Part shown: positions 136-19,600 of the stretch, piece by piece
Position numbering within the stretch: the first letter of the stretch is position 1
How the letters are laid out: each line of letters starts with the position of its first letter
Assembly (NCBI GenBank): GCA_903813345.2
Contig: CAIIXF020000001.1
Location: 37,043,366-37,107,365 of the forward strand
DNA: 64,000 nt
Direction: 5' to 3'
DNA from: Owenia fusiformis
Taxonomy: Eukaryota > Annelida > Polychaeta > Sabellida > Oweniidae
Position numbers and translations under genes: made by a program
The notes under the pieces: generated by a model
Database searches by the model: none
The model's input: only the letters and a program-made list of their open reading frames with translations
What the model was told of the DNA's origin: nothing

Positions 136-3100
136 GTATGTATTTTGTGTACATCTCACTCTGCAATTTTTAGCTGGTCATTTGTCGACTCGGTCTTATC
201 ACAAATATTTACGAATGTGTGTCTTAGATGATGATTGAATTGTATAGCTCATCAGAAAGTACTGATGAAGATTTTATTTCGCCCCTATCTGATATGACAC
301 ATTTTTCTGAGAATTTAGTAATGTAGATGCCTTTAAGTCCCATTTTCTCTAGATTTCAGTATGCAATTTACAGATCATGCGCACTCTGGGTTATATCAGA
401 ATATCGGATCAGTGTAAAATCAAATGACATCATGTTATAACCCCTAGTTCATTCTTTATTGACATATTTGCTATTTCAGTACAACCCCAGGATGGTGAGT
501 CAACAGGGTCAAACTCACTATACAATAACAGCCCCTTCACAGCCACAACAGTTTGGCATGCAACCCTCTCCAGCATCATACTACCAACAGCCGACACAAC
601 CCAACAACCCACGTAAGATGTTTTATACATTGAGCCCCTCCATCAAAAAGTGAAATGAACAGTTATTGACTTCTTTCCAATTAAAGGAAACTTCCCATGT
701 CAAAATCAATGTGTGCAAAAAGATGATATTGGACTTCTTCAACCCTTTTAATGACTATTTGCTTTTAGTTAAGATACCTATCGTGATCTCAGCAGGAGAT
801 TAATTATGATTCAAAACTCACAAAATATTTCATATCTAAGGAAGGGACCATATCCTGACACATCCTTTATAATTCTTTTCAGCTATATATTACTCAAACA
901 ATGTGACTGGACAACAAAGACCCATGGCTACACCAACTCCACAAGCTCCCAAGAGGGAAAAGAAAATTTTAGTAATTAGTGACCCTGACACGGGGAAAGT
1001 AATAAATGAAGCAATGATCGGCAATAAAGCTAGCACTCCTCCCCTTGCTGGTGAAAACACATCAGACACACCTCCAGCACAGCCTCCTACTTCAAATGTG
1101 AGTTTTCCTGCTTATAAATTGTGCAACAAATCTTGATACTGCAAAATGATATGGCGCTAATAGAGCACCTTACGGCCTTTTTTATTATAAATTTTTCTTT
1201 GGATGTCATAAGTGATGATTGAATTGTATAGCTCATCAGAAAGCACTGATGAAGATTTTATTTCGCCCCTATCTGATATGACGCTGACAGAATTAAATCA
1301 AGGCAATTGCTAAAGTTCATGTGTTCTTGACCTGTGTATACTGAAAAAAGGGCATATTCAATGATCTGTCCAATGTCATTTCAGACTGCAATAGCAGCTC
1401 AGTTTGCTGCCCAGGTAGCTGCAACTCTCAACCATACCACTAAGACACCTCCAAAGTCTGAGGAAGTAATAGATCAAACCATGGCTGATGTGAAGCCTGT
1501 AGTGAAAGATGACCATATGGAAAATGAAAGTGGTGATAACTTACAATCTGCTCCAACTAACCAAACGGAAAAGGCCCCTGTAGAGGCAGTTCAGCCTTCA
1601 CCCATTATTAAAGAGACCAAACCCCCTCAGGCTAGAGAGCCTAGTCCAGCTGTTGTACCCCAACAGCCCGAGCGACCTACTATTGTAGTTACACCCGAAC
1701 CAGAGCCCTCTCCTCCAAGGACTATAAAAGAGAATGCTCCTGTAGCTAGCAGACCTATAGAAAAACAAACTCCTGTTAGTAAACAAAAAGTAGAGACTGT
1801 AGTTAAGGAAGAGGTGGCCATCGAACCAACTCCTGTTGTTGCTGAACCTGCTCGTGTTGCAACTGAACCTGCTCGTGTTGCAACTGAACCTGCTCGTGTT
1901 GCAACTGAACCTGCTCGTGTTGCAACTGAACCTGCTCGTGTTGTAGCAGAGCCTACTCGCACAGCAAGTCCTGCTGCACCTACTCCTAAACCTGCAGCCC
2001 CAGTTGTCAAGGCCAGTCCAGAACCGGAGTTCAAAACCCCAGAGCCTGTTAGCAAGGTAGTCAAGGTTAGTATTCTATGCAATTTTTTCAATACATGATA
2101 GTCAGTAAGTTATTGCTGTATGATGATGTTGTTTTTAGGGTAGGATAACTGCATGAGAAAGCACAGTTGAATACATGATGGTTATTTATCTATTTAATTG
2201 GAGGTTTTGGATACAGGGTATATTCTGAGGGAAATATAAATATATCATATTTCCCAAGGATTATACCCTGTATCCAAAACCGAGCATTAAATATGTGATT
2301 TATCCTAGACTAAGATTTGAAAATGCACTGAATGAAATTTCCTGGTGATTGCTGTGTGGGAGGTATACATAACTTCCGCTCACCTCAGATATAAAATATA
2401 TTCCTGCATGTTATTTTCCTACAACACTACTAAGTATGTGATAAAGTGCCATATCTTATTGTTTAAAAGATGTTTTCAAATTGTTTTCCTACTAGTTACA
2501 AAGATGCTGTTTCATTGAGAAGAAATTTGACATAATTTCAAATCTTGCCAAAATGATCATTAAAAGAAAGGGCATTTTTGGAAATATGAAAATGTTAACA
2601 ACATTATTACTTGAAGTTGTTCGATTTTATCCAAGGAGGATTGGATCTCATGGTTCCAACTCAAGATTTTTCATCTCCAAGCAATTTGTTCAAAAGCTAA
2701 TTTCTACAGCAAAAAATGCACAAATGAACTGCAAGGAGAATGGCTGATATTCTAGCAAAATCAACAACAACTTGTTGTTATTGTCTGACATCATAACTGG
2801 ATATAAATTCATAATCAGCGATCCAAAGGATTTTCCTAATATCTTGATCACTTCTTATATGTTATGTTTTGTTATCTTTTGTTGGGAAATAAGACCAAAA
2901 TTCATGATTCAAATTCTTTGGTGAAAAAATGGTGACTGCAAATTAATTTTTTGGGGAATTTTGTAATCATGACATGACTCTATGTATGGCAGAATATATA
3001 ATGGAACCTTTGGAGCTAATCCTCGTTGGATTTTATTTAGTCTTTGCATTGCTCCCTATAGGCGTTGCTATAGTAGCTTCACTTGTTGCCATGGTGTCAC

Positions 3101-6100
3101 GGGGAGCATATATTAAACATTGGTGTCTTCTACCTAGCTGAAGCTGTCTATAGCTTAGTTATTTTACTTACACCATACAATTGAAATAATTTCTAATTGT
3201 ATTTTCCCTTTTAATGTGTCTTTTCAAATCTTTGATACATCATATTTTCACCAAAATATCAATATAACAGAGAGAAAAGTTCTTATATTTCAGATTTCTT
3301 AGTGTAGATTATATTGTGCATGCTTATTAACAAATATGAAGCCTTTTTGTATGATAAAAATGGTAACTGGGTATATTATATAAAGAACCTTAGAACTGCC
3401 AATGGTCACCAAATTTCTGGGGGTTTATATTTATACACTTTACCTGTGAATGTAACTTCCAAAATAGATCAAATTGATGAAACAAATGGAAAAGAAAAAA
3501 TTGCTTTTAGAGCAATACAACAACCTGAGAGCTGCCATCTATATCTAAACATTATTCCTAAGTATAAATTTATTTGCCATTTGCGAAGATACTATAAACA
3601 CTATACCTAGGCTGTAATGCATATTTTACATTTCGGCGCTACATAGAACATTCTCTATTGTGTTTTTTAACACAGGATTTATGCAATGCATGTAAATAGC
3701 TAAATATATTGTAGCTTAAATTAATAGGTATATCCTTGAATCTTGATCCAATCTAATATTGCTTGAATTATATTTTCCACAAAAGTGACAAACTTGTAAA
3801 CCTAAGCAAAAGGTGAAAATTGAAATAATTTTTGTCTCATTAATATTGGAGTAGTTATAGGTGCACTTAAAACTGACAAAGCCATAAAATGTCCAAGGTA
3901 ATGGAGCATTTCAAACGATAGATATCGGAAAATAAACTGTATTTGTATGTAGTTAGGGAGGGAGGGGTTCCTTAAAAACTGCTGTTCTGTCATTGTTACC
4001 GGGAAATTTTCTAAGTGCATGCTCTTTTCTCCCAGTGCACTTCTGGTACAATAAATAAAAAAACGTGAACGCAACAAATAAAACTAAACTAAAAAATGAG
4101 CGTTCTGAAGCCTGCCTATGCCAATCCAAGTGGCAAATACAGTGAATAATCCTATATTGAACTTTTGAGGGTCTTAATGCTAATCATTAAAGAAGGTAAT
4201 TTTCAGCATGGAAGTTCAATTCATAATCTTTGTTAAGTCAGATGTTGGGTTTAAACTTTATATGATGGTGCCTTAGAGATGTTGGCCGCTGCTCAAGAAG
4301 GAATTTTCAGGATGGTTGCTTGGTTCACAATGGCAGGTCTACCACGCTGACCCTTTCTCAGCCAATCAGTGGAATGAACACATGTATAGTTAAATACATG
4401 TTCATTAACTATGCGGCGATGTCACTAGAAATGACCATATGTCGTCCGTATTTAGACGACAAACTCTGATTGGCTCGGTGAGATCAGAGATTTATTGTAA
4501 ACTGAAAGAGTGAAGACGAAGCTCTGTTTTAAGTGAAGTCGAATGATTGCAAAGGGTAGGAGAACACGGGGTTTTATTTATTTATGATCATCTTTTGTAA
4601 TATTATGAACATGGACTGATATGTTCCCGATTTGCATTATACTTCGGCATGCTAGTATTAAATCCAATGACATATTAATTTTATTATATACTTCATATTT
4701 TGATCATATAAATTATTGATTTAATGTGTCCTTGACAGTAGATAATTATTCCCTACAGTTTAGAGACAATTTAACCTCAACAGACTTGGGGGCCATCTCA
4801 ACATCCAAGTTATTTGATAAGTTAGTTTACTTGTGTTTAGTTTTCATTTGATAATAATCACAGCTATTAGAGAATATTTTCAAAAGGTGTTATTATGGTA
4901 GGTCATATCATTACGTTTTTCTCCATCAAGAAGTGTTAACTAATGCAGCTAATTTTTGTGACTGCCATTGGTGATAAGTGGCTCTTATTACAATTCATTA
5001 TTTTCCTTTTGGGACAATTAGAACTTGCCCAGCAGGTAGTGTTATTTTGTCATGTTAATACCTTGTAAAAATCATGATTGCGTTTAAAATGATATTATAA
5101 AACTTCTGAAATTCTCCCCAGCATGAATCAGTATTGCCTTAGGAGACATGTAGACTGTACATGCTTTAAACAAATGAGATGCAATCAATACTGTACATAT
5201 CAGCAAATATTGAAGGAAGTTGAGTCGGAACAGCTGTTTCAGTTCATCTCCTGACAAGCCGTTTATATATTTTGGAATAAGATATAATTGAGATATTAAA
5301 ACAACCTGGAATAATTACATAATAACAGTGTTGTCCAATGAGGTACTTGGTAGGGATACAGGTAATATATATATTTTTAACTAATCTTTTCTACCTAGCT
5401 TAGTTACCTAGAGAAGTTCTGGTCATACCATATGGTATCATTCATGTTTAGAGAAAAAGCACACTATGTTATATCGATGGAAAGCTAATGTAAATATTAA
5501 GATAATATGATTTTAGATGAATGAATTGAATAAGGTGGCTAATGTGCGTTATAAAACACTTGAATTAATGAAAATGAGAAATCTTAACTTATATGTTATA
5601 CTTTTTGGGGTAAATGGTAAAGCCTACTCTGGGATGTTCTCACTTTTTATGTTACCACCTGATCTCAGCATCTGTAACAATTGTTACAGTTTTGTCACTA
5701 CAGGCAGATGGAGACATGTTCATGTGCCTGTCATACCTGTCATGTTTACTCTGTCATGGTTCAAATGCAGCGTGAACGAATTTAAACTCAGGAAAATCAA
5801 AAAATAATTACCCTCATAGGGTAGACCAATCCCATCACTCTCTTATGTGTTATATGGTTATATGAGTGCCGATATAAATGCTTTGATATTTATTTAGTTT
5901 ATCCTGTCACTTTAGTTTAAGTGAAAGTATTATCCCTGTCAAAAATATTTATAGGGTCAATTGCTCATTATAAAATATTGACCTTAGAGTTCATACAAGT
6001 AAAAAGTTGCTGAATTTACTCCCAGTCAGTAAAAACAAAGTCATAAATCATGTTAACAAAAGCCTTGTGGTGGAAGGAAATTAAAACATTCATACTGGTG

Positions 6101-9100
6101 AATATTCCATATTGAAAAATATCAACCATTTATTTAGTAACTAACTACAACCAGCTCTTATTGTATGTAAGTGAAATGAAGATGCCCTTGCCTCTATAGT
6201 GTGTTGTCCGTGTTTCTTTTATAGTATGCAAAATGTTAAGTTGAGAAGTTTACTCTGATTAGCATAAACTGCTCTTAATAAGCTTTCTCCAAACAAGGTG
6301 AACAGATGAAGCCTTTTATTTGTAACAAATAGTTATCCTTCTATGTTTGTACATGTGAAGTAAACGGAACATTGCACAAAGATATAAAATTTAACCAGTG
6401 AACAACAGTCAGCTTGTTAGCCTTTAGACTACACAGATTCGGCACACTCCTGATCATGCAAAGCTGTTGATGATGAACTTACATGAAAACGGGTCAGATA
6501 AAAATAACCACAAGTATTAGGTATCAGTTAGAGGCAAATAAAGATGGAGGATTAGTTAGTTGGGAAACATGTCTAGCACAGGCAAGAAAAGACGTAGAAG
6601 ACGATCAAAAGCTCGTCATACGGTAAGTCAAAGATAAGTTTTTAAAGTTGGGCAGTCGGCACATGTGTTTATGTCTGCTATTTTAATAAATAGGTTCAAA
6701 AAGCACAATTACATGAATTAGCTATAAAACTGAGTAGCTGAAGGTCATTTAGATGTATATTCATGACTTAACTGAAAAAAATATTTTAGCAAATAGGAAT
6801 TTCCAATGAACCTATGAAAGATAAATTAGCCAGCAAATATGGTCAATATACTGTTTGACCTTTGACAGGCCAATGTTGATAAGAATGTTATATGGCACTT
6901 GTAAAAGTTTAACTTATCATATAGTACTGGCTGTACTGAAATATAAAAATGTAGGACATATTGGGAGTGGACACAAAATACCTATTAAGGCTATCTTACC
7001 ACTGTAGACAGATTGGACGCAACATACTGGTTATAATACTTAAATTTACATACATATATTAAAGGAATAGATGAACAAAGTAAGTTACACAAACTTCAAG
7101 ATGGCTGCCATGAGAATGTGGTATGCTGCTATTTTATAATATGGAGCTGTCTGTGAGGTCATTGTGGCCTTGTCTTAACAGTCATGATTCACAGATATAA
7201 CCGCCATATACCAACTAACTACTCTCAAAGTATATTCCAGAGGATGTATGCATGGAACCAATCCAAATTGCTCATATGATGTACACTGTTAGGTATTTTG
7301 TATATTTGTGAACAAATATGTTTCCTTGTCTTAGGGCCATATGTTAAGTGCAAGTCACTGTTGACCAAGCAATTATTAGTACAAAAGCTGGCTATAGTGT
7401 GAATTATTATCAAAATGTTTAAAAATAAGTTTCATTATCTGATGATATGAAAATTTCAATATTTGGGGTATTGTTGTTAGGAATCAGTCTTCAAACAAGA
7501 TCAGACTTAACAACAAATGTGATCATACCCCTGGTCTGAGTTACACATATGTCTTCATTCAGAGATAAAGTGCATGATATACATTATTAATTTAATATTT
7601 TTTTGTTATTACAATTATTCATTGATACGTTTGTTACAAATTGAAAAATTTTATGATAAATATTTATTAGTAAATTGGTGTTATCTTGCTCTGGTATATA
7701 TTGCATCTATCATAATGCAGTATAGGCAGGTTTAGCTTTTAATGTCTACTTTTAACAAATCAATTAATTTTCTGAAATATTCTTTCATTCAGGAAATACC
7801 ATTGCCTGCTAAGTATCTGAATATCATCTTAGATCATCTCCAGGCTGTTGATATTGATTCTATTTGTATTCATTGTACATGTAACCAGAATGCTTGTTCC
7901 AGCTGATGATTTAAAAGCTACTGCCCTTCACAAGAGTCTACTCTTTCAATTAGAGATTATTCACTCATCTGGCCTTTATCTAAGATCAGGAAAAAGAACG
8001 CTACATTTTCAACTTATCAATAGCCATGCTTTGGTTGATATTAGAGCATCACATAAACTTTCATGAAAGCAACATTTCAGCTTTTTAGGATCTAATCGGC
8101 ATCAAAGTTTTAAATCATGTGTAATATACAGAGTGTATTGCAGTGATGAATCAGGGTATTACAAACTTGCTGAAGTTTGGACACCAGATAGGTGTGATAT
8201 CCAGAGATTATATTTAAACCCTATATTAAAAGTGGATCCTTATCATAGATGTTATCTTGGATTCCTCCTGCTTGACACCTTTGGTTAAAGTCTGTTTCAT
8301 CAGCATCCAGGTTTATGGTTTGATATCTGGTTTCATGTCATCACACACAATCTTGCAATATTGATAAGCCATTTTATTTTCTCACATTGGAAATGTCTTA
8401 TGGTATCACCCCCCCCCCCCGCCCCCTTCTCAAATTATCTATTAGTTGTGGTAGCAGGGGTATGATACATGCAGCCAGGGGTGGTCTATATGCCAATCTT
8501 AACTGGAAATTTTCAACTTGGTTTGCCAAACATGAATTGAGAGGAGACAAAGATAATTATTTTGCTTTGTATGCCTAATTATATTTAGTTGAGCATTCAG
8601 GCATTTATGTTAAGGTTTCCTCCTGTTTTGGCAGTAATTTTGTCTATAAATCATGAAATAGTTGGACCAACATTTTCTAAGGGTGCATTTGTTTGGCTGG
8701 TTGATTCAATAAGAAACATCTCTCTTTGTGCTCTTGAGTATAACGAAGATACACTTAAAATGCCATTACTAGTTATAATTTACTAGATCCATCAAAATAT
8801 ATGTATCCATATAATAAAAGTAATATACTATTTTTCAAAAATGTGACATCCCAAAATTTGTTTGACTTAAAGCTGAACACTCATCAAATCATTGCTCCTA
8901 TGCTTTGGAGCCATCTATTGTCAGTGAACAACTGCCTTTACAGCCATTTAATAGCCATTTAATTGCTAAAACCTCCACATTTAAATGGTTATATAAGTCT
9001 TAAACAACCAGCATGTAATTCACATGTAATGGTGTCATATTTCATAGAACTATACCTAATCTTACATTAAATATTCACAGTGTCTTATCTCTATGTATTT

Positions 9101-12100
9101 CCAGCAGCCAGTAGAGCAGAGCCAGGCTCCTGCTGCTGCCCAAGCAGCCACTCGTGCTGCCACCAGTGCTGATGTGAACAATGTAGATGATAAACCTGTG
9201 GTCCAACCAGTGCAGCCTGCCAAGCCCCCAGCCCCTGTAGAGCCCCCAGCCCCAGTCCCTGACCAGGTAGAAATCAAGGTAGTTGAGAAGGTCCCTCAAG
9301 AACCAATTGTACAGAATGGCAAGAATGAAGATGACAGAACAGATGAAGCAAAGGAGAATGATAAAAATGCAGCAGAGGATTCTGATGCAAGAGAACCAAT
9401 TAAAAATAAAACAGAACTTAAATATAAATATAGGGAAGGTATGTATTGTATTGAATTGAATTGTAGAAAATATTGTCAAGATATTTTGCTCCATGGCCTG
9501 TTAATATTGAATGTTTGGCTCATATGGAATCGCCCAATTGTTAGTCTAATAATATCAGTTTCAACCTTTTAGGTTTTACATGTTTTTTAGGCATAATTAT
9601 AATGATTTCATTTTGAGCTTATCCTGTTGATCATATTCAATAATCCTATTGTATTGTAGCTATAGGTCACACTTATCCATTGCCTAATTTTGTTATTTGG
9701 CCTATTTTTACATCTTGACCTGTTTTTTAAGAAGAGTATAAGGAATCACCATGTAAGGCTACCAAATGGAATCATTTTGTCATAAGTGATGATTGAATTG
9801 TATAGCTCATCAGAAAGCACTGATGAAGATTTTATTTCGCCCCTATCTGATATGACACATACAACCATTGAATGACCATGTTAAAAATGATGAAGTAAAT
9901 TGTAATGTTTTTCAAGAAACTTGTGAAATGATAAAATCATTGCATGCTTGTTACTTTCAGACCAGTGGAGTCCTATCAACACAGAGGGAAAGAAATCTTA
10001 TGACCGTGACTTCCTGCTCAATCTGCAATTTGTCTCTGATTCCATGTCTAAACCCAACAAACTTCCTCGTCTCCCAGATGTCATCCTGGACAAAGTAGGT
10101 TTTTTACTATTATCTCAGATTTAACTCTGATCTAAACATTAGAAAAAAATTCAAGATATCATTTTTATTGATTTGTAGACACTTCAAAAGTGTTTTCAAT
10201 TGAAATTTAATTCACTGAATCCCATTTCAAAAGTGCCTTAATGTCATATCCTTTGTAATTTGGGAGAGGCAAATGATCTGAAAATTCTGTGTTAAATAAT
10301 CTGTATGATCCATGTGATTAAGGAATGTAAAGGCTTTGCTTGTTGTTTCTTATGTGATGATGATTGTATGGCTTATCTGACTTATTCATGGAAGAATATA
10401 TCACCATGTCTGATAAGGCACAACATTGGCAAAGTTTTTTCATTGTTAAGTGCGTGGCATCCACAATTCTTTGAGTCCTCAAGAAAAAATTTCCTCAATA
10501 ACATGTTATCTGTGCTTCCAGCCAGCGACAAAAGGTGCTGCAAAGAACATAGGTGGGGATGTCCACTTGAGACCAGGTGGTATGGTAGACTTCACTCCTA
10601 GCTTCTTCAAGGCATCTGGCTCAGACAATAGGGGCAGACCTGTAAGTATTCTCTGCCTATTGCAACATATTAACTTCCTGCCTTACAAGTTATAGATCAC
10701 CTGACATACTTAGAAATAATACAGCAAATTAAGTCACCAATGGACCACTTACAAAGGTGTTGAGTCTTCAATGTAGTTGTACTTGTAGTCTTTAATGTAC
10801 TTGTACAAGTATATATACATACAGTGCCAATGGTAATATGTAGGGGTGAGACGACAACCCGATGAGTCGAGGACTCGCGGGTTTGGGGCTTCGAGTCGAG
10901 TCGAATAGAGTCGAAGTTGATGAATCGAATCATTTTCGAGTTGAGAAAAAAATTCAAAAAAATAAAAAAATTCAGAAAAATACTGTCAATATGCATGTTT
11001 TTACTCGATATTGCGTTGAATATATAAGTTTCAATGACTTGGATATGCTTGTATTAAATTATTATATTGTATGTACACATAAATGAAAGAATATATGTAA
11101 TAAAATCAGAATAAACTTACGACGAATTGTGTTTGTTTATATTTCTGGCTTTCCACCATTGACGCATTAAAAATACGAACGGTAAAAAGCGATGTTGTTC
11201 GCACTTCGCGCGACTCGAAACGGATTCGAAACTCGAATCGTCATTTTCTGACTCGAATCGGATTTTTTCGACTCATCTCACCCCTAGTAATATGAATAAT
11301 CAAAATCACATTTCTCCATTGAAGTGATAGGCAATATACATGTACATCAGAAGGGATTGACAACAACAATATTTTACCTTGTTTGATGGAACTTCATATG
11401 ATCCTGATCTGTATGTTTCGAAAGCTAGCAATCTTTGATTAAAATGATATTATTTGAAAGAGTAAAACCATTTGCTATGTTTTATCCAGCTATTATTAGG
11501 TGAATAGGAGCTAATAATCAAATTGACTATGTATATAGGGAGGCGGTGGAGGTAGAGAAAGTATGGGTCGCCGTAGTGGACAGCGTGGTGGTGACAACAA
11601 GACTCCCCGTAAGATCATAAACATCTCTGTGCAGCAAGACATTAAGCTCCATCATGCTGAGAGTGCATGGAAGCCAACTCATAGTGCTCCAGCAGCTGAA
11701 GAAACTAATGTAAATGAGGTAAGACTAACTTTTCAGTAGAACCTCCATTGATATATCTAGGAACACATTATGGAGTTATGAAGTATGTAGCCTGTGATGA
11801 GCAACCACATCTCTGTCTGAGATCTGTGAAGATTTACAGTGAATTCCTCGTTGCTGAGGTTAACATGAATGAATTGTTCAATTATCCAAGAATATGCATA
11901 TCATACCAAAATAATTTGCTTTTGCTATAACATGAAATTGCCCTCTGTCCAGCTGACAATTTTGACATGTTATTGTAGCAGTCATTTGAAAATAGCATTA
12001 CACTTGGCTCTCTCCCTTGTTCCAATTTTTCTCTGTTTAAACATAAATGCAGAAAATTGATGAATACTAGTACATAGTCCTCCTATTTCACATTGTAGGA

Positions 12101-15100
12101 ACTGTACAAAAAAACCAGGGGTATTCTCAACAAGCTGACCCCCCAGAAATTCAAAACTCTTGTCGCTCAGATCATGGAGCTGGAGATAGACACAGAGACA
12201 AAACTACGAAATGTCATTGATCTCATATTTGATAAGGTAAGTTCATGAAAGATAAATTTCATATTTTGGTTTCATATATTAGTTTTTGCAACATCAATTA
12301 ATGAAATTGAGTAAGTTATGTAGCCTGTGATGAGCAACCACATCCCAGTCAGAGATCTGTGAAGATTTACAGTGAATTCCTCGTTGTTGAGGTTAACATA
12401 ACATAATCAATAAGAGAATTCTGTAACTGTGTTACTTTGGTTTAATGAGTGTTTCTGATTCAATTGATGAGTATCTGTTGTTTTTCAGGCCCTTGATGAG
12501 CCAGGGTTTAGTGTGGCCTATGCAAACATGTGCAAATGCCTTCAACCAGTAAGTAATCTAATGCACATATATAAAATGCAGTATGCGAAATACACAGTTT
12601 TGTCTCACTGGGAACACCTCGGCACAAAACATTTTCAAATCAGTCTTTCCCAAGCTGTAAGATGCCTTTGGGATAAGAGGAAATTCTTCAAATTTTCAAT
12701 GCTCAAGTCAGCTGTTTGGATTCACATATTAACTGTAGTTTATATTACTTTGTCAAATAAAAATTGATAATTACATTACTTCTGTTATATATCATCAGTT
12801 ATGATTTGGATAATCTATTTATCTGTTCAGTTACAATTTTATAGTATTTATATTGCTGCGTTGTATTTGTAGCTTAAAGTTCCTGCTGAAAACCCAACAA
12901 AAGAGGGAGAGAAAGCAACATTTAGAAAACTCTTGATCACAAGATGTCAAAGGGAATTTGAAAAAGAAAAGGAAAATGCCAATTCTGAAGAAAGGGAGAA
13001 GAAAATCCAAGAAATAAAAAGTATAGAAGATGTAAGTTTTAAAACTGTTATGATATTTGGCTCATCAGAAATTACCGATGAAGATTTTATTCATGTCATA
13101 AACACATTGTTTTGTTTCGCACTGATCATACATTCATATCTATTGTTTGCTTGATTATTTCTAGGAACCTAAAAGGAAACTAGCCCTAGAGGAATTTGAT
13201 TATGCAGAATTAAAAGCCAAAAGGAGGACACTAGGAAACATCAGGTATGCTGCCTTTTCTCTTTGTTTATTGATAGAAATTTAAACTAGAAATAAGGCCA
13301 TTTGTAGTAATTAAACAGAATCAGAAATCACTGATCTAAAATGCATTGAATAACAAACAGGGTAATGATCTAATCAACTTAGTCATATTTTGTTTTTTCC
13401 TTTTCAGGTTCATTGGTGAATTATTTAAATTAAAAATGTTAGTAGAACCAATTATGCATGATTGCATTGTGAAACTCCTCAAATCCAATGACCAGGAATC
13501 CTATGAGTGTCTATGTAGGCTACTGTCCACTATAGGGAAAGATATAGACCATGAAGAGGCCAAACCCATGATAGACCAGTATATTACACAGATGCAAAAA
13601 ATTGTGGATCAAAAGAAGACTTGTTCCAGGGTCAGGTTTATGCTTCAAGATGTAATGGAACTAAGAAGAGTAAGCATTAATGTTTTATCCAGTGAAAATC
13701 TTATGCCTTGAATCAGGTCAAAATCTTAGTATTTAAAAGTCGGAACCAATTGGTTTAAAATTTGATTCACTTATAATGTTACCTATTACAAAGTATTACT
13801 TGGGTAATTTTTCTCTGAGGGTGAGAAGAGTCATCTGATCATTATGAAGGTGTCTTAGGTGATGATGATTGTATGGCTTATCCGATTATTCTTGAAGGAT
13901 TTATTAACTCGTCTGATAAGACACTATATGAAAGCTTTAGCTACTTCTCACATGGCCTCTGTCATTACAAAGTGTTCACTATATAGAGTTTACAAAATGT
14001 GTTTTACATGCAAGAAATATAACTGAAAATGCCCATAAAACTTTTAGACTATTATCTCCACATATGGGAATATTTGATGAGTTGATATTTATTTTTCACC
14101 AGAATATGTGGGTACCTAGACGAGAAGACAATAATCCCAGAACTATAGACCAGATCCACAAGGAGGTTGAGAGGGAGGATGCAGAGAGGGCCATGTTACT
14201 GCAGCAATTCAACCACCAACAGAAGCAGGGAGGTGGACAAGGCAATAGAAAGTAAGTATTGATGGAAGCTAGTCACAGTTAATGTTTAAATACCTTAATG
14301 TAAACAGATTTGTTGGTTTTAGGTCATGGGCTATGTCATAAGTGATGATTGAATTGTATAGCTCATCAGAAAGCACTGATGAAGATTTTATTTCGCCCCT
14401 ATCTGATATGACACGAGACATTCGATTTAAACCAGGGACTTAAATTCATTAAATCACAATATTTTATTATGTCTACAATCTCCAACACTTCAATATGGGA
14501 ATACAGTGTTAGCTTAGGTGTGTCTTTCCATCCGTCTATCTCCTAAGCTCTTTTACTGAATTACTTGAATATTGCTCCACTGGATTTGCACCTCCTGTCC
14601 ACCATATTGATTTTCATGCTTTTTGTTGTTGCAGTATGAGAGGAGGCAGGGGTAGCAGCCAGGGTCAGACTCCACAGAAACAAGCTGATGATGGCTGGAA
14701 CACTGTAGGTGCCAAGACTAGTAGAGCACCCCTAGACCCATCAAAACTCAGGCTTACCAAGGTATGTTCATTTGTAAGAATTAGAACTTCATAATCAATT
14801 TAGAACATATGAAATAAGTATCTTAAGTACCAGACTTGCACAATACCTAGCCTGTGATGAGCAACCACATCCATGTCTGAGATCTGTGAAGATTTACAGT
14901 GAATTCCTCGTTGCTGAGGTTAACATAAACAAAATATGAAAATGTGAATTACTCTTAGATGCAATACCATAATTAATGCATTTAACAAGTACCAGGTCAA
15001 TTTTTCAATGTGTATTTCACATTTCACAAGAATTGCATTACATTTCAGATTGATCCTTTCAGAATGTAGGGTTGCTTCAACTTTTTGCATTGACTTTTGG

Positions 15101-18100
15101 AATTCATCAATATTGGATTCTATAATGTACGTTGATAACCAGAATCTCTTGTGTTTTCAGCAAAAGGTGGATGATAACATTCAGTTAGGTCCTGGTGGAG
15201 GCATGTCGCGGTTCTCAGGATGGGGCCGAGGAAGCAGTGGAGGTGGTAATGCCGCTAAGCAGCAAGAGCCTGAGAGGCCTACCACTCCAGCCAACAGGTA
15301 CACCATTTATGTTATGTATGCAAAATGAGATGGGGGTGAATGCAAATGAGTATTAGGGAGTTGGTAGGTGCCTAAATGATGATGATTGTATGGCTTATCT
15401 GAATGAACCATTTGAAGAAAAAATAACTATGTCTGATATGGCACCATATCATCTACGCTTTTTGGAAAGATTTCAAAAAATATTTGGTGTTTCATGCACT
15501 ATATTGGAGCATTGATCTTCGTAGGACAACATGTTTACTTTGAAGTGATTTATTTCTAGGTTCAGTGCTCTCAGTGGAGGTGCCGGTGGTCCCCCTGCTG
15601 GAGTTCAACCCAATGAGTCGGAACAGAGGGGACGACCTAGCATGGGTCGTGGAGGTCAGACTCCAGGCAGAGGCAGTGACCAGAGAAGTAAGACCCCCCA
15701 GAATACCCCCAGAGGTGGAAAGAGGCCCTCTGAGGACAGGGAGGCAGCTCTAGCTGCTGTCAGGTAAGTGATGAAGCATGCTGGGAACTTATGAATAGCA
15801 GAGTTGCCTCACTCTGATTCTTTAAAAAGTCCACTAAATTTTTAGATTTGGATGATAATGCGATTTTCCCAATGTACAGAATTGTGCTTAGTAATAAAGA
15901 TTCTTTATTTCCTCCAGAGGCAGATTTTGAATATTTTTTTGTAGTACTTATAATGAAGATTGAATTTTTGTATTGCTCATGAGAAATTGTTTGTGAAGAG
16001 ATCTGATTTGATGCTTCCTTACATCTATGATTCATTTGAATGTTCACCTTTAATTTGTTTGAATAAATCATATTTTTATGCATTTATAATTTAACTTTCA
16101 GGAATATGGGAGTCCCTCCCAACCAGGTTAATACAGGAGATAGAGTATCCTCCAGAGACAATAGCAGAAACAGGGATGTTATTCCCCCTGCTGCAGACAC
16201 TTCTAAACAAATGACTGTAGAAGAAATGGAGAAAAAGACTAAATCAATATTAGATGAATTCCTCCATATACAGGACAAAAAGGAGGCTATATTGTGTATA
16301 GAGGAACTACGGTCTCCTCAGACTATTAGCACTTTTGTATATACAGCACTAAACCATGTGCTAGAACGCTCACAGCAAGCCCGCAGGCAAACTGGAATGC
16401 TTATTCATGATGTTGTTAAAAGTGGTGCAGTCTCTGTAGATAGTTATGTAAAAGGGTAAGTGAACTTAATTCTTTTCTATTGTTATTATTTGTAACAAGA
16501 TATCTTATGCAACCTGCTAGCGCACCCGTCAGCATGAGACAACTAAAATTTATTTATTTCCAAAAGCGATAATTCTTATTATTCTGTTTAGTCTCATTAA
16601 TTCTTGGTAGTTAATCGATTCATCTTATCTGTTCCAGTCTACAAGAGATATTAGAGTTCGCTGATGATATGGAAATAGACATCCCTAAAATTTGGAATTA
16701 TCTTGCGGAACTGATAGGTCCCATGATTCAGGACAGCAGTGTCCCTCTCCTCTTCCTCAAAGATGCCTTCCAACCCCTGCTCAGGTGTAACAAAGCTGGC
16801 AAGCTGGCCGCTGCAGTACTTCATGATGCCAGCACCAGACTGGGCCACCACACGGTGGCAGAGTTGTGGAAGGCCTCGGGCCTACAATGGTCAGACTTTC
16901 TCGCACCTGGTCATAGTAGAACGGAGTTTATAAAACAAAATGTGAGTGATTCCACCATCTTCTTAGGTTATTATCCCATCGAACGAAGTTCGGAGGGATA
17001 TAGGGAACGCCTCCGTCCGTCCGTACGTCCATCCGTCCGTCCGTCCGGGCAATAACTCAAATACTGTTGGCCCGATTTTGTTCATATTTTGTACACATAT
17101 ACCCTATGGGGGTAGAAGTTCTGCTCGAGAGCTGATTTTCAAAATGGCCGCTCATTTAAAAATGGCGGCCATTTTAGTGCCCAATTTACAGTACTTTAGG
17201 TGCAATATGTAAAACTGTAATAGCAATATGTTTGAGATGTAAAAAAAATTATATAGGACATTAATAAAGCTAGAAATGTAGATATTAAAGAAGCACATGG
17301 CAGCCATCTTGAAAAATGGCGGCCTTTACTCGTTATTTTACGATTTTTGCTGTAACTTGAAAAGTAGTGGAGCGATTTTGTTCATATTTGGTATGTGAAT
17401 ACTATAAATATTGCACACTGCTTAAAGACACTTTTGGTAGAAGGCGGCCATTTTGAAAAATGGCCACCATTTTAACATATTTTACTATAACTCGAAAAGT
17501 AGTGGAGCGATTTTGTTCATATTTGGTATGTGAATACTATAAGCATGACACACTGTCCTATGACACTTTTGGTAGAAGGCGGCCATTTTGAAAAAAATTT
17601 TGAAAAATGGCCGCCATTTTAAGGTATTTTACTATAACTCGAAAAGTAGTGAAGCGATTTTGTTCATATTTGGTATGTGAATACTATAAGCACGGCACAC
17701 TGTCTAATGGCACTTTTGGTAGAAGGTGGCCATTTTGAAAAATGGCCACCATTTTAACGTATTTTACTATAACTTGAAAAGTAGTAGAGCGATTTTGTTC
17801 ATATTTGGTATGTGAATACTATAAGCATGGCACATGGTCTAATGACACTTTTGGTAGAAGGCGGCCATTTTGAAAAATGGCTGCCATTTTTGCTATATAC
17901 TTTGTTTGTAAAAATGCCATCCATGGCTGTTCGATGGGATTCGCTACGCTTTGGCGTTGCCGTTGTTCTGGTTTAACATACCATTCATTGCTTCAAGTAG
18001 CCTGTGATGAGCAACCACATCCCTGTCTGACATCTGTGAAGATTTACAGTGAATTCCTCGTTGCTGAGGTTACCTAACGAAGTAATGATGATCGTAGAAC

Positions 18101-19600
18101 ATGTAAAAGTAAATATTTTCTTATTTGTATCTTAGTATGTCTTCTTATTGTTCTTATTCATAGGGATAACTAACTTGTTGTGTTTGTTTTTGTAGAGTCT
18201 AGAATTTACTGTAGATAGTGACACGCCTCTCAGCCCCACAGTCAGACAACCACTAGCGATAGTAAAACAGGAGCTTAGACGCCTAATAGAAAAAAATATT
18301 TCCAATGAGCAGATATTTGATTGGATATCATCTAGTGTTGGGGAGCCACAATGTCGGGAACCTCAATTTATTCGTGCTCTCATGAGGGCAGTCTGTAATA
18401 GTGCAATCAAAGGTATGTCAACAAACAGAGCAGTTATAACCTAGTTATAACCTACATGAAGTCTTGCTTCAAGTCTTGTTAATCCCCCTTTTTCTCTTCT
18501 TTGTGAAGGTGTCATGTTAGTGGGGTAGACACACACCTGATGCAAGACTTCCTAGTTGATATATTTACATAGTGTAAATTATGTATTTGTGCATCATAGA
18601 TGATGATTGAATTATTGCATAGCTCATCAGAAATGGTTTGTGAAGATTATATTTTCTCTTAGCTGATATGATGCTTTCATATTGAGAAACTTAATGAATT
18701 ATTCTTTCAACTTCTCTGTAAATAGTGAGTGAGAAACATTATATTCTTCTCTTGTCACCAATCCATGTGCGTTTTACTGGTATGGCAAATAAAATAACTA
18801 AATGTGTTGATATATGTATTGCAGGATCCTTACCAAACATTAGTTATGAACTAAAAGAGATCAAAGATAGACAGTTACTTCTACAACGGTATCTAGATCA
18901 CCAGCCCACCCTAGAACTACAGGCGCTATATGAGCTACAAGCCTTAGTACATGAATTAGAGCACCCACCAGGTATGAATTTGAACACATATGTCTGAATA
19001 TTCAGAGCACTGATTAGAAATAGAGGAATGCAATTTATTGAGGCAGAGGGTTCAATAGATGGTATGATTGAACAGGAATCTGATATATTGTGTATTACTA
19101 AATTATGCATGCATTAGATATGTTATCCAGTACTGTAACAGTAAGAATCCAGTTGTGCTCTGTAATCTAAAATATCATCAAATTCATAATTGATTTTGCA
19201 TCATAAATGATGATTGAATTATTGCATAGCTCATCAGAAATGGTTTGTGAAGATAATATTTTCTCTTAGCTGATATGATGCATCATTTTACCTGTAAAAT
19301 GTAGTATTCTTTAATAATTTGCTGGAAAATAATTTCTCGTCTCATTTTGAACTAAAATATTCCCAGATTGTGAAGGAGATACCTATAGAACCACCCTATA
19401 TTCTACTTTTCATATTTCCAGGTTTACTACGGAATATATTTGATACATTATATGACGAGGACATTATATCTGAGGATGCCTTTAACCAATGGGAAGCTAG
19501 TGAAGATCCCGCTGAGCAGGAAGGCAAGGGAGTTGCGCGTAAATCAGTTGTACAGTTCTTTACCTGGTTACGCGAGGCTGATGAGGAGGCAGAAAGTTGA
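1..19600 (+). CDS. EIF4G: eIF4G, translation initiation factor 4 gamma (5' partial, 22 exons)
   Basis: Scaffold of the cytoplasmic eIF4F cap-binding complex; the family binds eIF4E, eIF4A, eIF3 and PABP. Exons: 1-135, 480-612, 883-1097, 1385-2065, 9105-9438, 9961-10094, 10522-10641, 11539-11718, 12099-12236, 12489-12548, 12873-13031, 13165-13244, 13408-13669, 14103-14251, 14635-14761, 15161-15297, 15560-15763, 16102-16455, 16638-16941, 18196-18412, 18825-18971, 19422-19600. Every intron is GT-AG, phases agree throughout, and the sum is 4,449 nt (1,482 codons plus stop). Residues are numbered from base 1. The [16 protein letters not shown] block (about 115-130) matches the vertebrate [16 protein letters not shown] segment. 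YDRDFLL (513-519) is the eIF4E motif YxxxxL-phi. MIF4G is about 645-877, MA3 about 1120-1300 and W2 about 1303-1482, ending in the acidic/aromatic box [12 protein letters not shown]. The start codon lies upstream of the window. Whether the gene corresponds to vertebrate EIF4G1 or EIF4G3 cannot be told. The introns host box C/D snoRNAs. Confidence 0.95.
219..300 (+). ncRNA. Box C/D snoRNA, family A copy 1 (snR60/SNORD80-like)
   Basis: Lies in eIF4G intron 1. Terminal stem 219-226 with 293-300, box C ATGATGA (228-234), D' CAGA (253-256), C' CTGATGA (262-268), box D CTGA (289-292). The 12 nt before box D (277-288, TTTCGCCCCTAT) are fully complementary to the universally conserved 28S segment AUAGGGGCGAAA. 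The fifth position pairs with the second G of the G-run, the site methylated by yeast snR60 (Gm908) and human U80 (Gm1612) as I recall. The D' guide pairs, with one mismatch, around UGAACUAUGC, the snR60 second site. Confidence 0.88.
480..612 (+). CDS. EIF4G: eIF4G exon 2
   Basis: Gln/Pro/Tyr-rich linker, residues 46-89 ([20 protein letters not shown]). Acceptor CTATTTCAG|T, donor C|GTAAGA, ending one base into a codon. Confidence 0.85.
883..1097 (+). CDS. EIF4G: eIF4G exon 3, conserved N-terminal KRE...DPD block
   Basis: Residues 90-161. It contains [20 protein letters not shown], the counterpart of the conserved vertebrate block after the PABP-binding region ([20 protein letters not shown], from memory). 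The first two bases complete a Pro codon from exon 2. Donor AAT|GTGAGT. Confidence 0.9.
1205..1282 (+). ncRNA. Box C/D snoRNA, family A copy 2
   Basis: Lies in eIF4G intron 3, ending 102 nt before the acceptor. Perfect terminal stem GTCATA/TATGAC, box C GTGATGA (1212-1218), C' CTGATGA, box D CTGA (1273-1276). Same 28S guide TTTCGCCCCTAT at 1261-1272 as copy 1. Confidence 0.88.
1385..2065 (+). CDS. EIF4G: eIF4G exon 4, Pro/Glu-rich linker with heptapeptide repeats
   Basis: The largest exon (227 codons, residues 162-388), low in complexity and rich in Pro, Glu, Val and Ala, so predicted disordered. It holds six tandem 21-nt units (1844-1969) coding EPARVAT and variants. Acceptor CATTTCAG|ACT, donor AAG|GTTAGT. 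Phase is 0 at both ends, so the exon could be skipped without a frameshift. Confidence 0.88.
1844..1969 (+). repeat. 21-bp coding tandem repeat (EPARVAT heptapeptides)
   Basis: Six tandem 21-nt units in eIF4G exon 4. The first four code EPARVAT with near-identical nucleotides; the last two drift to EPARVVA and EPTRTAS. Nucleotide identity points to recent slippage or unequal exchange. Confidence 0.9.
2203..2281. repeat. 79-bp near-perfect hairpin, probable tiny foldback element
   Basis: Arms GGTTTTGGATACAGGGTATA and TTATACCCTGTATCCAAAACC pair. Inside them GGGAAATAT pairs with ATATTTCCC. No clear target duplication. Confidence 0.6.
6569..6622 (+). CDS. EIF4G: Possible alternative first coding exon of eIF4G
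   Basis: ATG in a good context (GAAACATGT) opens [18 protein letters not shown] and ends exactly at a strong donor, ACG|GTAAGT, in phase 0. That is the phase of exon 5 at 9105. An in-frame TAG sits four codons upstream (6557-6559), and a three-codon upstream ORF (ATG GAG GAT TAG, 6544-6555) precedes it. Spliced to exon 5 it would give an isoform that lacks the N-terminal conserved block but keeps the eIF4E site. Inference from sequence; transcript evidence is needed. Confidence 0.45.
9105..9438 (+). CDS. EIF4G: eIF4G exon 5, linker up to the eIF4E-binding region
   Basis: Residues 389-500, Ala/Pro-rich then acidic, ending [11 protein letters not shown] just before DQWSP, the counterpart of vertebrate KYEYKSDQWKP. 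Acceptor TTTCCAG|CAG; a CAG CAG pair allows an alternative acceptor three bases on. Donor GAAG|GTATGT. Confidence 0.9.
9779..9856 (+). ncRNA. Box C/D snoRNA, family A copy 3
   Basis: Lies in eIF4G intron 5, 104 nt before the acceptor. Box C GTGATGA (9786-9792), box D CTGA (9847-9850), 28S guide 9835-9846, terminal stem GTCATA/TATGAC. Identical to copy 2 from stem to stem. Confidence 0.88.
9961..10094 (+). CDS. EIF4G: eIF4G exon 6, eIF4E-binding motif
   Basis: Residues 500-544. [11 protein letters not shown] (YDRDFLL at 9999-10019) is the canonical YxxxxL-phi helix that docks on the dorsal face of eIF4E. The following [12 protein letters not shown] matches vertebrate GLPHISDVVLDK. Acceptor TTACTTTCAG, donor AAA|GTAGGT. 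Confidence 0.95.
10342..10424 (+). ncRNA. Box C/D snoRNA, family C copy 1
   Basis: Lies in eIF4G intron 6, 97 nt before the acceptor. Long imperfect terminal stem 10342-10352 with 10414-10424, overlapping box C options GTGATGA/ATGATGA (10354-10363), perfect D' CTGA (10377-10380), box D CTGA (10410-10413). The D' guide TTGTATGGCTTAT is conserved in all three family C copies; the box D guide is not. Confidence 0.82.
10522..10641 (+). CDS. EIF4G: eIF4G exon 7
   Basis: Residues 545-584, including VDFTPSFF, a conserved eIF4G patch (vertebrate PDFTPSFA) just C-terminal of the eIF4E site. Acceptor TGCTTCCAG, donor CCT|GTAAGT. Exactly 40 codons, phase 0. Confidence 0.92.
10841..11286. mobile_element. 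Non-autonomous hAT-like element in eIF4G intron 7
   Basis: 446 bp with terminal inverted repeats TAGGGGTGAGACGA and TCATCTCACCCCTA, flanked by a perfect 8-bp duplication GTAATATG (10833-10840 and 11287-11294). The interior has repeated GAGTCGA/TCGACTC motifs and no transposase. Confidence 0.88.
11539..11718 (+). CDS. EIF4G: eIF4G exon 8
   Basis: Residues 585-644. A Gly/Arg-rich run ([16 protein letters not shown]) is followed by [20 protein letters not shown], matching vertebrate [20 protein letters not shown] just before MIF4G. Acceptor TATATAG, donor GAG|GTAAGA. Confidence 0.92.
11787..11865 (+). ncRNA. Box C/D snoRNA, family D copy 1 (18S guide)
   Basis: Lies in eIF4G intron 8. Box C GTGATGA (11794-11800), D' CTGA (11817-11820), C' TGTGAAGA, box D CTGA (11854-11857), bulged terminal stem GTAGCC/GGTTAAC. 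The guide GAATTCCTCGTT (11841-11852) is fully complementary to the conserved 18S segment AACGAGGAAUUC. By the D+5 rule the G of AACG would be methylated, probably the yeast Gm1572 site served by snR57 (from memory). Confidence 0.85.
12099..12236 (+). CDS. EIF4G: eIF4G exon 9, start of MIF4G domain
   Basis: Residues 645-690: [18 protein letters not shown] then NVIDLIFDK, the first HEAT hairpins of MIF4G (vertebrate [27 protein letters not shown]). This domain binds eIF4A. Confidence 0.95.
12319..12398 (+). ncRNA. Box C/D snoRNA, family D copy 2 (degenerate box D)
   Basis: Lies in eIF4G intron 9, 90 nt before the acceptor. Box C GTGATGA (12327-12333) and the 18S guide GAATTCCTCGTT (12374-12385) are intact. 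Box D is TTGA (12387-12390) and D' is CAGA. The changed box D suggests a weak or dying copy. Confidence 0.7.
12489..12548 (+). CDS. EIF4G: eIF4G exon 10, MIF4G
   Basis: A 60-nt exon for [20 protein letters not shown], the near-invariant MIF4G segment (vertebrate [20 protein letters not shown]). Acceptor TTTTTCAG, donor CCA|GTAAGT. Confidence 0.95.
12873..13031 (+). CDS. EIF4G: eIF4G exon 11, MIF4G
   Basis: Residues 711-763: [20 protein letters not shown], matching vertebrate [20 protein letters not shown], then a charged helical stretch. Confidence 0.94.
13048..13101 (+). pseudogene. Decayed family A snoRNA copy
   Basis: In eIF4G intron 11. Keeps GGCTCATCAGAAA, a C'-like CGATGAAGATTTTATT and outer complementarity (TTATGA with GTCATAA). 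It lacks the box D CTGA and the TTTCGCCCCTAT guide, and the first box is altered to ATGATAT. Probably a dead copy. Confidence 0.55.
13165..13244 (+). CDS. EIF4G: eIF4G exon 12, MIF4G
   Basis: Residues 764-790: [20 protein letters not shown] then RTLGNIR. The closing AG of this exon and the G of exon 13 form the Arg codon of [11 protein letters not shown]. Confidence 0.92.
13408..13669 (+). CDS. EIF4G: eIF4G exon 13, end of MIF4G domain
   Basis: Residues 790-877: [40 protein letters not shown] and [14 protein letters not shown]. These are the most conserved blocks of MIF4G and very close to the vertebrate sequence. Confidence 0.96.
13850..13924 (+). ncRNA. Box C/D snoRNA, family C copy 2
   Basis: Lies in eIF4G intron 13. 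Perfect 8-bp terminal stem GTGTCTTA/TAAGACAC, box C within 13859-13868, D' CCGA (13882-13885, one change from consensus), box D CTGA (13913-13916). Keeps the conserved guide GTATGGCTTAT before D'. Confidence 0.82.
14103..14251 (+). CDS. EIF4G: eIF4G exon 14
   Basis: Residues 878-927: [20 protein letters not shown], matching vertebrate [20 protein letters not shown], then a Gln-rich tail. Acceptor TTTCACCAG, donor AA|GTAAGT. Confidence 0.93.
14335..14412 (+). ncRNA. Box C/D snoRNA, family A copy 4
   Basis: Lies in eIF4G intron 14. Box C GTGATGA (14342-14348), box D CTGA (14403-14406), 28S guide 14391-14402, terminal stem GTCATA/TATGAC. Identical to copies 2 and 3, so either recently duplicated or homogenised. 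Confidence 0.88.
14635..14761 (+). CDS. EIF4G: eIF4G exon 15
   Basis: Residues 927-969: Gly/Arg-rich, then [20 protein letters not shown] and LRLTK, matching vertebrate [20 protein letters not shown] and RLTK in the MIF4G-MA3 linker. Confidence 0.92.
14847..14925 (+). ncRNA. Box C/D snoRNA, family D copy 3 (18S guide)
   Basis: Lies in eIF4G intron 15. Box C GTGATGA (14854-14860), D' CTGA (14877-14880), box D CTGA (14914-14917), 18S guide 14901-14912. All boxes intact. Confidence 0.85.
15161..15297 (+). CDS. EIF4G: eIF4G exon 16, linker
   Basis: Residues 970-1015: [20 protein letters not shown], comparable to vertebrate FAPGGRLSWGKGSSGG. Acceptor GTGTTTTCAG, donor AG|GTACAC. Confidence 0.9.
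15367..15445 (+). ncRNA. Box C/D snoRNA, family C copy 3
   Basis: Lies in eIF4G intron 16, 114 nt before the acceptor. Terminal stem GGTGCC/GGCACC, box C ATGATGA within 15376-15385, D' CTGA (15399-15402), box D CTGA (15433-15436), conserved guide GTATGGCTTAT before D'. Confidence 0.82.
15560..15763 (+). CDS. EIF4G: eIF4G exon 17, linker
   Basis: Residues 1015-1083: NRFSALSGG start (vertebrate LNRFSALQQ), then a disordered Arg/Gly/Pro-rich linker ([20 protein letters not shown]). Confidence 0.9.
15947..16014 (+). pseudogene. Decayed family B snoRNA copy
   Basis: In eIF4G intron 17. Resembles family B across ATTGAATTTTTGTATTGCTC, GAGAAATTGTTTGTGAAG and CTGATTTGATGC. Box C has become ATGAAGA, and about 14 nt including most of the box D guide are missing. 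No good terminal stem. Confidence 0.5.
16102..16455 (+). CDS. EIF4G: eIF4G exon 18, start of MA3 domain
   Basis: Residues 1083-1201. MA3 starts near [20 protein letters not shown], matching vertebrate [20 protein letters not shown], and continues with [12 protein letters not shown]3 is a second, modulatory eIF4A-binding domain. Confidence 0.94.
16638..16941 (+). CDS. EIF4G: eIF4G exon 19, end of MA3 domain
   Basis: Residues 1201-1302: [20 protein letters not shown], matching vertebrate [20 protein letters not shown]. Acceptor CTGTTCCAG, donor AAT|GTGAGT. Confidence 0.94.
16973..17940. mobile_element. Dispersed repeat with ATCCCATCGAAC ends and CCGT tract (copy 1)
   Basis: Inside eIF4G intron 19. 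Outer 12-bp inverted repeat ATCCCATCGAAC (16973-16984) and GTTCGATGGGAT (17929-17940). A CCGT microsatellite near 17011-17048 is followed by tandem units rich in AAAATGGCCGCCATTTT. A second copy with the same plan lies at 62661-63431. Class uncertain. Confidence 0.65.
17340..17880 (+). repeat. About four tandem units of roughly 140 bp
   Basis: Each unit runs from AGTAGTGGAGCGATTTTGTT through TTGGTATGTGAATACTATAA and TTTTGGTAGAAGGCGGCC to TGAAAAATGGCCGCCATTTT. They are internal to the transposon-like repeat in intron 19. Confidence 0.75.
17997..18073 (+). ncRNA. Box C/D snoRNA, family D copy 4 (18S guide)
   Basis: Lies in eIF4G intron 19, 122 nt before the acceptor and just after a transposon. 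Box C GTGATGA (18004-18010), D' CTGA (18027-18030), box D CTGA (18064-18067), guide 18051-18062. Terminal stem GTAGCC/GGTTAC pairs throughout with one G-U, the best stem of the family. Confidence 0.85.
18196..18412 (+). CDS. EIF4G: eIF4G exon 20, start of W2 domain
   Basis: Residues 1303-1375: [17 protein letters not shown] and [15 protein letters not shown], matching vertebrate SSNQRVFDWIEANLSEQQ and LVRALMTAVCYSAI. The W2 domain recruits Mnk kinases in animals. Confidence 0.93.
18458..18551 (+). ncRNA. Possible structured RNA in eIF4G intron 20
   Basis: A perfect 10-bp outer stem GAAGTCTTGC/GCAAGACTTC encloses 74 nt with an inner GGTGTC/GACACACC pairing. CTGA falls just inside the 3' arm as in a C/D snoRNA, but there is no box C after the 5' arm. 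It may be a foldback element or an unrelated RNA. Confidence 0.3.
18591..18674 (+). ncRNA. Box C/D snoRNA, family B copy 1
   Basis: Lies in eIF4G intron 20. Perfect 8-bp terminal stem GCATCATA/TATGATGC, box C ATGATGA (18600-18606), D' CAGA, box D CTGA (18663-18666). The D' guide GCATAGCTCAT is shared with family A in better form (one mismatch to 28S UGAACUAUGC). The guide before box D (TTTTCTCTTAG) differs from family A and I do not recognise its target. Confidence 0.85.
18825..18971 (+). CDS. EIF4G: eIF4G exon 21, W2 domain
   Basis: Residues 1375-1424: [20 protein letters not shown] and [14 protein letters not shown], matching vertebrate LQALYALQALVVTLEQPP. Confidence 0.93.
19198..19281 (+). 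ncRNA. Box C/D snoRNA, family B copy 2
   Basis: Lies in eIF4G intron 21. Terminal stem GCATCATA/TATGATGC, box C ATGATGA (19207-19213), box D CTGA (19270-19273). Nearly identical to the copy in the preceding intron, which points to local duplication. Confidence 0.85.
19422..19600 (+). CDS. EIF4G: eIF4G exon 22, C-terminus and stop
   Basis: Residues 1424-1482: [20 protein letters not shown] and [17 protein letters not shown], the paired acidic/aromatic boxes that end eIF4G W2 domains. Stop TGA at 19598-19600. Confidence 0.95.

Follow-up and report, generated by a model that had tools for sequence, protein, structure and literature searches.

An array of intronic box C/D snoRNA copies in the eIF4G gene of Owenia fusiformis, with a putative counterpart in eIF3A

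Short elements of similar sequence recur in one intron after another of a single gene in the annelid Owenia fusiformis, raising the question of what they are, how they came to lie there, and whether they serve the ribosome, the host gene, or neither. We analyzed this gene in a window of 64,000 nucleotides (the whole stretch of DNA considered here; positions are those of the window unless another sequence is named) and extended the genome-wide searches to the 498-Mb assembly. Sequence comparisons make it very probable that the gene, eIF4G, is a host of intron-encoded guide snoRNAs that would have been expanded by copying within the gene and would direct rRNA methylation.

RESULTS

The host gene and its occupied introns

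Twenty-two in-frame exons between positions 1 and 19602 of the forward strand, with boundaries chosen by eye and then refined by script, splice into a single open frame of 1480 codons whose stop codon ends at 19602. The spliced product contains Pfam MIF4G, MA3, W2, and eIF4E-binding domains, all above their cut-offs, which together with the open frame identifies the host gene as eIF4G. The window contains 21 of its introns; the 5' part of the gene is on an upstream stretch (L001), which carries further eIF4G exons. Intron 16 has two candidate acceptors, both in frame, 15559 and 15565, and the first was taken for intron assignments. Exon 4 contains an in-frame 21-nt tandem repeat (1814 to 1981) encoding repeated VATEPAR heptads, intron 4 a MITE-like 47-nt inverted repeat (2191 to 2293; 83% complementary, with a 9-nt loop), and intron 19 minisatellite-like repeats (17052 to 17905; 135/147-nt spacing) with ATGGCCGCCATTTT-like motifs, adjoining one of the family-B copies described below.

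Thirteen intact box C/D copies, all in the sense strand and one per intron, occupy 13 of the 21 introns (1, 3, 5, 6, 8, 9, 13, 14, 15, 16, 19, 20, and 21) and fall into four families, a count and arrangement that the first-pass annotation had proposed and that intron mapping confirms; the distance from copy to acceptor, put there at 90 to 235 nt, was close to the 89 to 234 nt that we measured. Family A, which is snR60/U80-like, has four copies, at 219 to 300 (intron 1), 1203 to 1284 (intron 3), 9777 to 9858 (intron 5), and 14333 to 14414 (intron 14), and family A2, U80-like with a changed D guide, has two, at 18591 to 18674 (intron 20) and 19198 to 19281 (intron 21). The four family-B copies lie at 11784 to 11866 (intron 8), 12317 to 12399 (intron 9), 14844 to 14926 (intron 15), and 17994 to 18076 (intron 19), and the three family-C copies at 10346 to 10423 (intron 6), 13850 to 13926 (intron 13, with CCGA as box D'), and 15367 to 15445 (intron 16).

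Several further elements were absent from the first-pass annotation: two decayed C/D copies, an H/ACA snoRNA in intron 4 (3048 to 3181, sense strand) with an upstream twin, an upstream C/D candidate, and an array in eIF3A. The decayed copies, both in the sense strand, are a family-A remnant in intron 11 (13048 to 13099), recognized by a 32-nt match at 94% identity that retains the D'/C' region but has neither a complete box C region nor a D guide, and a family-A2 remnant in intron 17 (15946 to 16012), in which a 48-nt block is 85% and 88% like the two intact A2 copies. Together with the intact copies and the H/ACA element they bring the occupied introns of the window to 16 of 21; introns 2, 7, 10, 12, and 18 are without a snoRNA copy.

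Identity of the copies and chance expectation

All six intact A and A2 copies reach the curated cut-off of the Rfam family RF00309 (snR60/U80; 41 bits), with scores of 41.7 to 51.8 bits: 48.7, 50.5, 51.8, and 51.6 for the A copies in order of position and 41.8 and 41.7 for the A2 copies. A genome search with the same model, in which 61 of 124,802 first-look candidates were scored, listed the four A copies and neither of the A2 copies. For families B and C no Rfam family scored above its cut-off. The names ceN111, SNORD12, SNORD11B, SNORD111, and similar ones, which Rfam attached to C/D loci below the cut-off, were taken as cross-matches.

A strict generic C/D scan, allowing box C one mismatch and demanding CTGA, CNGA, and a stem, returned 11 candidates on the sense strand of the 27.1-kb eIF4G gene and none on the antisense strand, against a mean of 0.07 per strand and a maximum of 2 under a first-order Markov null (30 simulations). 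The same scan of a further 65.9 kb, drawn partly from the window and partly from elsewhere in the assembly, was empty on either strand; eIF4G and this comparison DNA together contained no antisense or intergenic candidate. The number of copies is beyond chance expectation. Ten of the 13 intact copies pass the scan, with box C and box D near their ends and a closing stem, and the eleventh candidate is the single-copy element upstream. The other three copies each have one weakened element, by which, on our reading, they escape the scan: a stem mismatch at 219, TTGA as box D at 12317, and a bulged stem at 15367. The scan is insensitive, returning 0 candidates in a 30-kb eIF3A region where guide matching gives five copies, because it demands a CNGA box D' that the eIF3A copies seem to lack.

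The identity of the eIF4G copies as box C/D snoRNAs, already put forward in the first-pass annotation, is supported by the Rfam matches of A and A2, by the boxes and stems, and by two further lines given below, namely two stem pairs in which both partners differ between A and A2 and a spacing of predicted guide targets like that in yeast.

Copying, divergence, and decay

Core sequences are 89 to 99% identical among the copies of A, A2, and B (family C, to which ungapped core comparison is unsuited, was aligned with gaps), and the 60-nt flanks have a mean identity of 28% (range, 13 to 42%; 32 comparisons across the four families). Such closely matching cores between unrelated flanks are as expected for inserted copies, and they would also fit a dispersed short repeat, SINE-like or a snoRNA-derived retroposon, that is locally dense here. 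Its distribution in the genome speaks otherwise: BLAST of the assembly at E values up to 10 returned four matches for B, two for C, five for A2 (its own two copies and three A copies), and six for A (four A and two A2), all of them within eIF4G on the plus strand. The matches included the four B copies and the C copy at 15367. Copies scattered in both orientations, the pattern that the first-pass annotation had set against its own reading, were sought in this search, and none of the returned matches lies outside eIF4G or off the sense strand. BLAST missed one of the three C copies and the two decayed ones, so diverged relatives may exist elsewhere in the genome.

Two other features may weigh against a dispersed repeat. 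The 25 nt that follow each of the 13 intact copies contain no A run longer than 4, with the flank of the copy at 14844 being A-rich (15 of 25 nt). In addition, A and A2 differ at two terminal-stem pairs, with both partners changed (six sequences), in agreement with the earlier statement that stems are preserved while their letters differ; among 500 shuffles, 6 reach the covariation score and 239 have as many pairs of this kind. With the returned matches confined to eIF4G, we set the dispersed-repeat reading aside as extremely improbable. We prefer copying from intron to intron inside eIF4G, which it is possible was RNA-mediated.

The copies could also be genuine snoRNA sequences that are mostly dead or redundant, with one expressed master in each family. 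Two copies have clearly decayed, the B copy at 12317 has TTGA as box D, the A copy at 219 has a stem mismatch, and the D guides of the three C copies have diverged, all of which this reading would predict; however, the D guide of family A is identical across its four copies, as is that of family B across its four and the D' guide of family C across its three, and we consider a largely dead array unlikely. Family A2 has kept the first family-A guide and lost the second.

Guides and rRNA targets

Targets were sought in 1,159 nt of one host 28S copy and in two host 18S copies that look shortened, and target nucleotides were placed by the +5 rule. The 18S copies, on contigs C10 and C501, look internally shortened and are possibly rDNA pseudogenes that may be non-functional. 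The D guide of family A forms 12 unbroken pairs with the 28S target AUAGGGGCGAAA (1 of 150 shuffled guides as good; one A-D shuffle scored 14, above the guide itself), and the D guide of family B forms 12 unbroken pairs with the 18S target AACGAGGAAUUC, found at nt 1124 in one of the two shortened 18S copies (0 of 150 shuffled guides as good). The score of these two guides was reached by 1 of 440 control boxes from eIF4G. The D' guides of A (score, 9.75; as good in 8 of 150 shuffles and 35 of 440 control boxes), A2 (10.5; 5 of 150 and 14 of 440), and C (10.25; 10 of 150 and 19 of 440) have candidate targets for which pairing alone is not decisive. No convincing target in the searched host rRNA emerged for the A2 D guide (73 of 150 shuffles as good) or for the four B D' and three C D guides (83 to 137 of 150). 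Predicted pairing with rRNA is strong for the A and B D guides and moderate for the D' guides of A, A2, and C.

The two predicted family-A sites in the host 28S are 91 nt apart, and the predicted site of the eIF3A family described below lies 10 nt before the second; in the yeast positions compared, Am817, Um898, and Gm908, the 817/908 and 898/908 spacings are identical to those of the host guide sites. Family A has the two guides expected of snR60/U80, with predicted large-subunit sites 91 nt apart; A2 keeps one guide. The first family-A target is a G in the host 28S where yeast has Am817, and the guide reads GCUCA against GUUCA in the Rfam consensus, with the C facing that G, a match that seems to fit co-evolution of guide and target, as judged from one 28S copy.

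For family B, the 12-bp D-guide duplex puts the G of AACGAGG in the host 18S at the +5 position; from an alignment of positions, we take this G to be the equivalent of yeast Gm1572. The chicken C/D table, in the part compared, has no site between 18S G1402 and A1633, the interval in which the Gm1572 equivalent (about 1592, counted from C1659 = yeast C1639) would fall. For family C we tentatively predict 18S G48, a position with no entry in the yeast rows compared, which pass from Am28 directly to Am100, or in the chicken rows compared.

The predicted targets also bear on a possible cis function, in which the elements would influence the splicing or expression of eIF4G and not rRNA. In human, intronic snoRNAs are reported to be able to pair with the introns that carry them (PMC10324135), but families A and B and the eIF3A family have predicted rRNA guides at known yeast methylation sites, for which a cis role has no need, and we regard such a role as highly unlikely in comparison with guidance of rRNA methylation.

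An H/ACA element and an upstream C/D candidate

The predicted fold of the intron-4 element is hairpin-hinge-hairpin-ACA, with a z score of −2.31 and a stability matched by 4 of 200 shuffled sequences. Taken with an alignment of three copies, the fold gives the two hairpins, the hinge with an H box, and the ACA three bases from the end that are expected of an H/ACA snoRNA; the 3' end and the H box, of the form ANANNA, were identified by eye. Of the other two copies, the twin (97% match; L001 7050 to 7196) lies in an intron farther upstream in eIF4G and the relative (79% match) in an eIF3A intron on contig C5. No Rfam family scored above its cut-off for these copies, the best name for the intron-4 element being SNORA17 at 23.1 bits against a cut-off of 29. 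An upstream eIF4G intron also carries the eleventh strict-scan candidate, at L001 5561 to 5648 in the sense strand, whose only BLAST match in the genome is itself. Its D guide is borderline, with an equal score in 9 of 150 shuffles, and its D' guide has no target in the searched rRNA beyond those of shuffles (129 of 150 as good); it is probably a single-copy C/D snoRNA.

A putative second array in eIF3A

The exon pieces around the H/ACA relative on C5 match eIF3A (best E values, 6.5e-30, 5.9e-19, and 4.3e-11), and guide matching there points to five copies, all on the minus strand between about 34362268 and 34367860, of a C/D family distinct from A, A2, B, and C. Two weak, sub-threshold Rfam matches to one of these copies were the lead to the array; no C/D Rfam family matched the copies at E values up to 0.5 in that region. 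The copies at 34367860, 34367115, 34366522, and 34364990, like the H/ACA copy, lie between eIF3A-matching exon pieces, and the copy at 34362268 sits between two charged open stretches resembling the eIF3A tail, one of which was searched and gave no PDB match. Four of the five share the guide CUAUACGCAAGUUU, and the copy at 34367115 differs in its guide. This guide pairs perfectly over 14 nt with the same host 28S copy, in a predicted fit to the equivalent of yeast Um898; guides of its type are absent from the window, L001, and L002.

DISCUSSION

Each snoRNA would be freed from the spliced and debranched host intron by exonuclease trimming and would then assemble with the proteins of its class, fibrillarin for C/D and dyskerin for H/ACA. 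Family A would direct 2'-O-methylation of two host 28S sites, the equivalents of yeast Am817 (here a G) and Gm908; A2 would retain the first of these guides alone; family B would direct 18S methylation at the equivalent of yeast Gm1572; and family C would perhaps act at 18S G48. The set appears to have grown by the copying of snoRNAs between introns of eIF4G, with selection presumably preserving the boxes, the guides, and the pairing of the stem; flanks and individual stem letters would have drifted, and failed copies would decay in place. Multiple copies would probably raise snoRNA dose and couple it to transcription of an initiation factor, and eIF3A may have followed the same course with another C/D family, aimed at the equivalent of yeast Um898.

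The eIF4G array provides a clean example of snoRNAs multiplying inside a protein-coding gene, in which near-identical copies, re-paired stems, a subfamily minus one guide, and decayed copies stand side by side. The separate arrays in two initiation-factor genes make the link between snoRNA copy number and host-gene dose testable, and the A guide, at least, seems to track a change in the host 28S. A more far-reaching proposal, to which we assign a low probability, is that in this lineage initiation-factor genes, eIF4G and eIF3A at least, serve as amplified snoRNA hubs in which guides are copied from intron to intron, perhaps via RNA, so that initiation-factor output and ribosome methylation rise together; the ancient 18S Gm1572 mark, which is not in the chicken rows compared, would be kept, and family C would add 18S G48, a mark missing from the yeast and chicken rows compared.

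The titles and abstract openings returned by literature searches mentioned neither this eIF4G array nor a catalogue of snoRNAs from molluscs or lophotrochozoans; within the reach of these searches, the size and make-up of the array and its eIF3A counterpart are new. The array represents a known type of arrangement, here expanded within one gene to a large size. In the published chicken material compared, EIF4G1 hosts HBII-142 in two copies, in introns 11 and 14, and intragenic duplication is proposed as the major route of snoRNA expansion, so this kind of arrangement was already known. We take HBII-142 to belong to the SNORD66 family, of which human SNORD66 is reported to be hosted in EIF4G1. 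The first-pass annotation named only SNORD66 and few others in vertebrate EIF4G1, which is roughly right, with two HBII-142 copies in the chicken gene. HBII-142 thus shares its host gene with the eIF4G array and is duplicated within that gene in chicken, but its target is given as 18S C1230 in chicken and C1272 in human, and no eIF4G guide was best matched there.

Family A has the same two guides and the same two predicted sites as snR60/U80 (SNORD80, RF00309); it differs in being hosted by eIF4G in four copies, in having a G and not an A as its first target, and in its A2 relatives without the second guide. Chicken U80 copies are described as located in a gas5-like gene. U77 was proposed as a U80 derivative that lost one function, that of the A site, in vertebrates (PMC2653536, in the part compared); U77 and A2 are thus both U80 relatives minus one guide, but A2 keeps the A-site guide and has lost that of the G site. 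Family B resembles yeast snR57 (18S Gm1572) in aiming its D guide at what we take to be the equivalent G; B has no Rfam match above its cut-off. The eIF3A family, outside the window, resembles yeast snR40 (25S Um898) in its predicted 14-bp D-guide pairing with the equivalent U but is present in five copies, of which four carry the exact guide. As described in the sources compared, gas5-type host genes are alike in carrying many C/D snoRNAs, one per intron, with paralogues in one gene, and the chicken table rows compared have up to 3 isoforms per snoRNA; in Owenia fusiformis, by comparison, the host is protein coding, and four families are present at 2 to 4 copies each.
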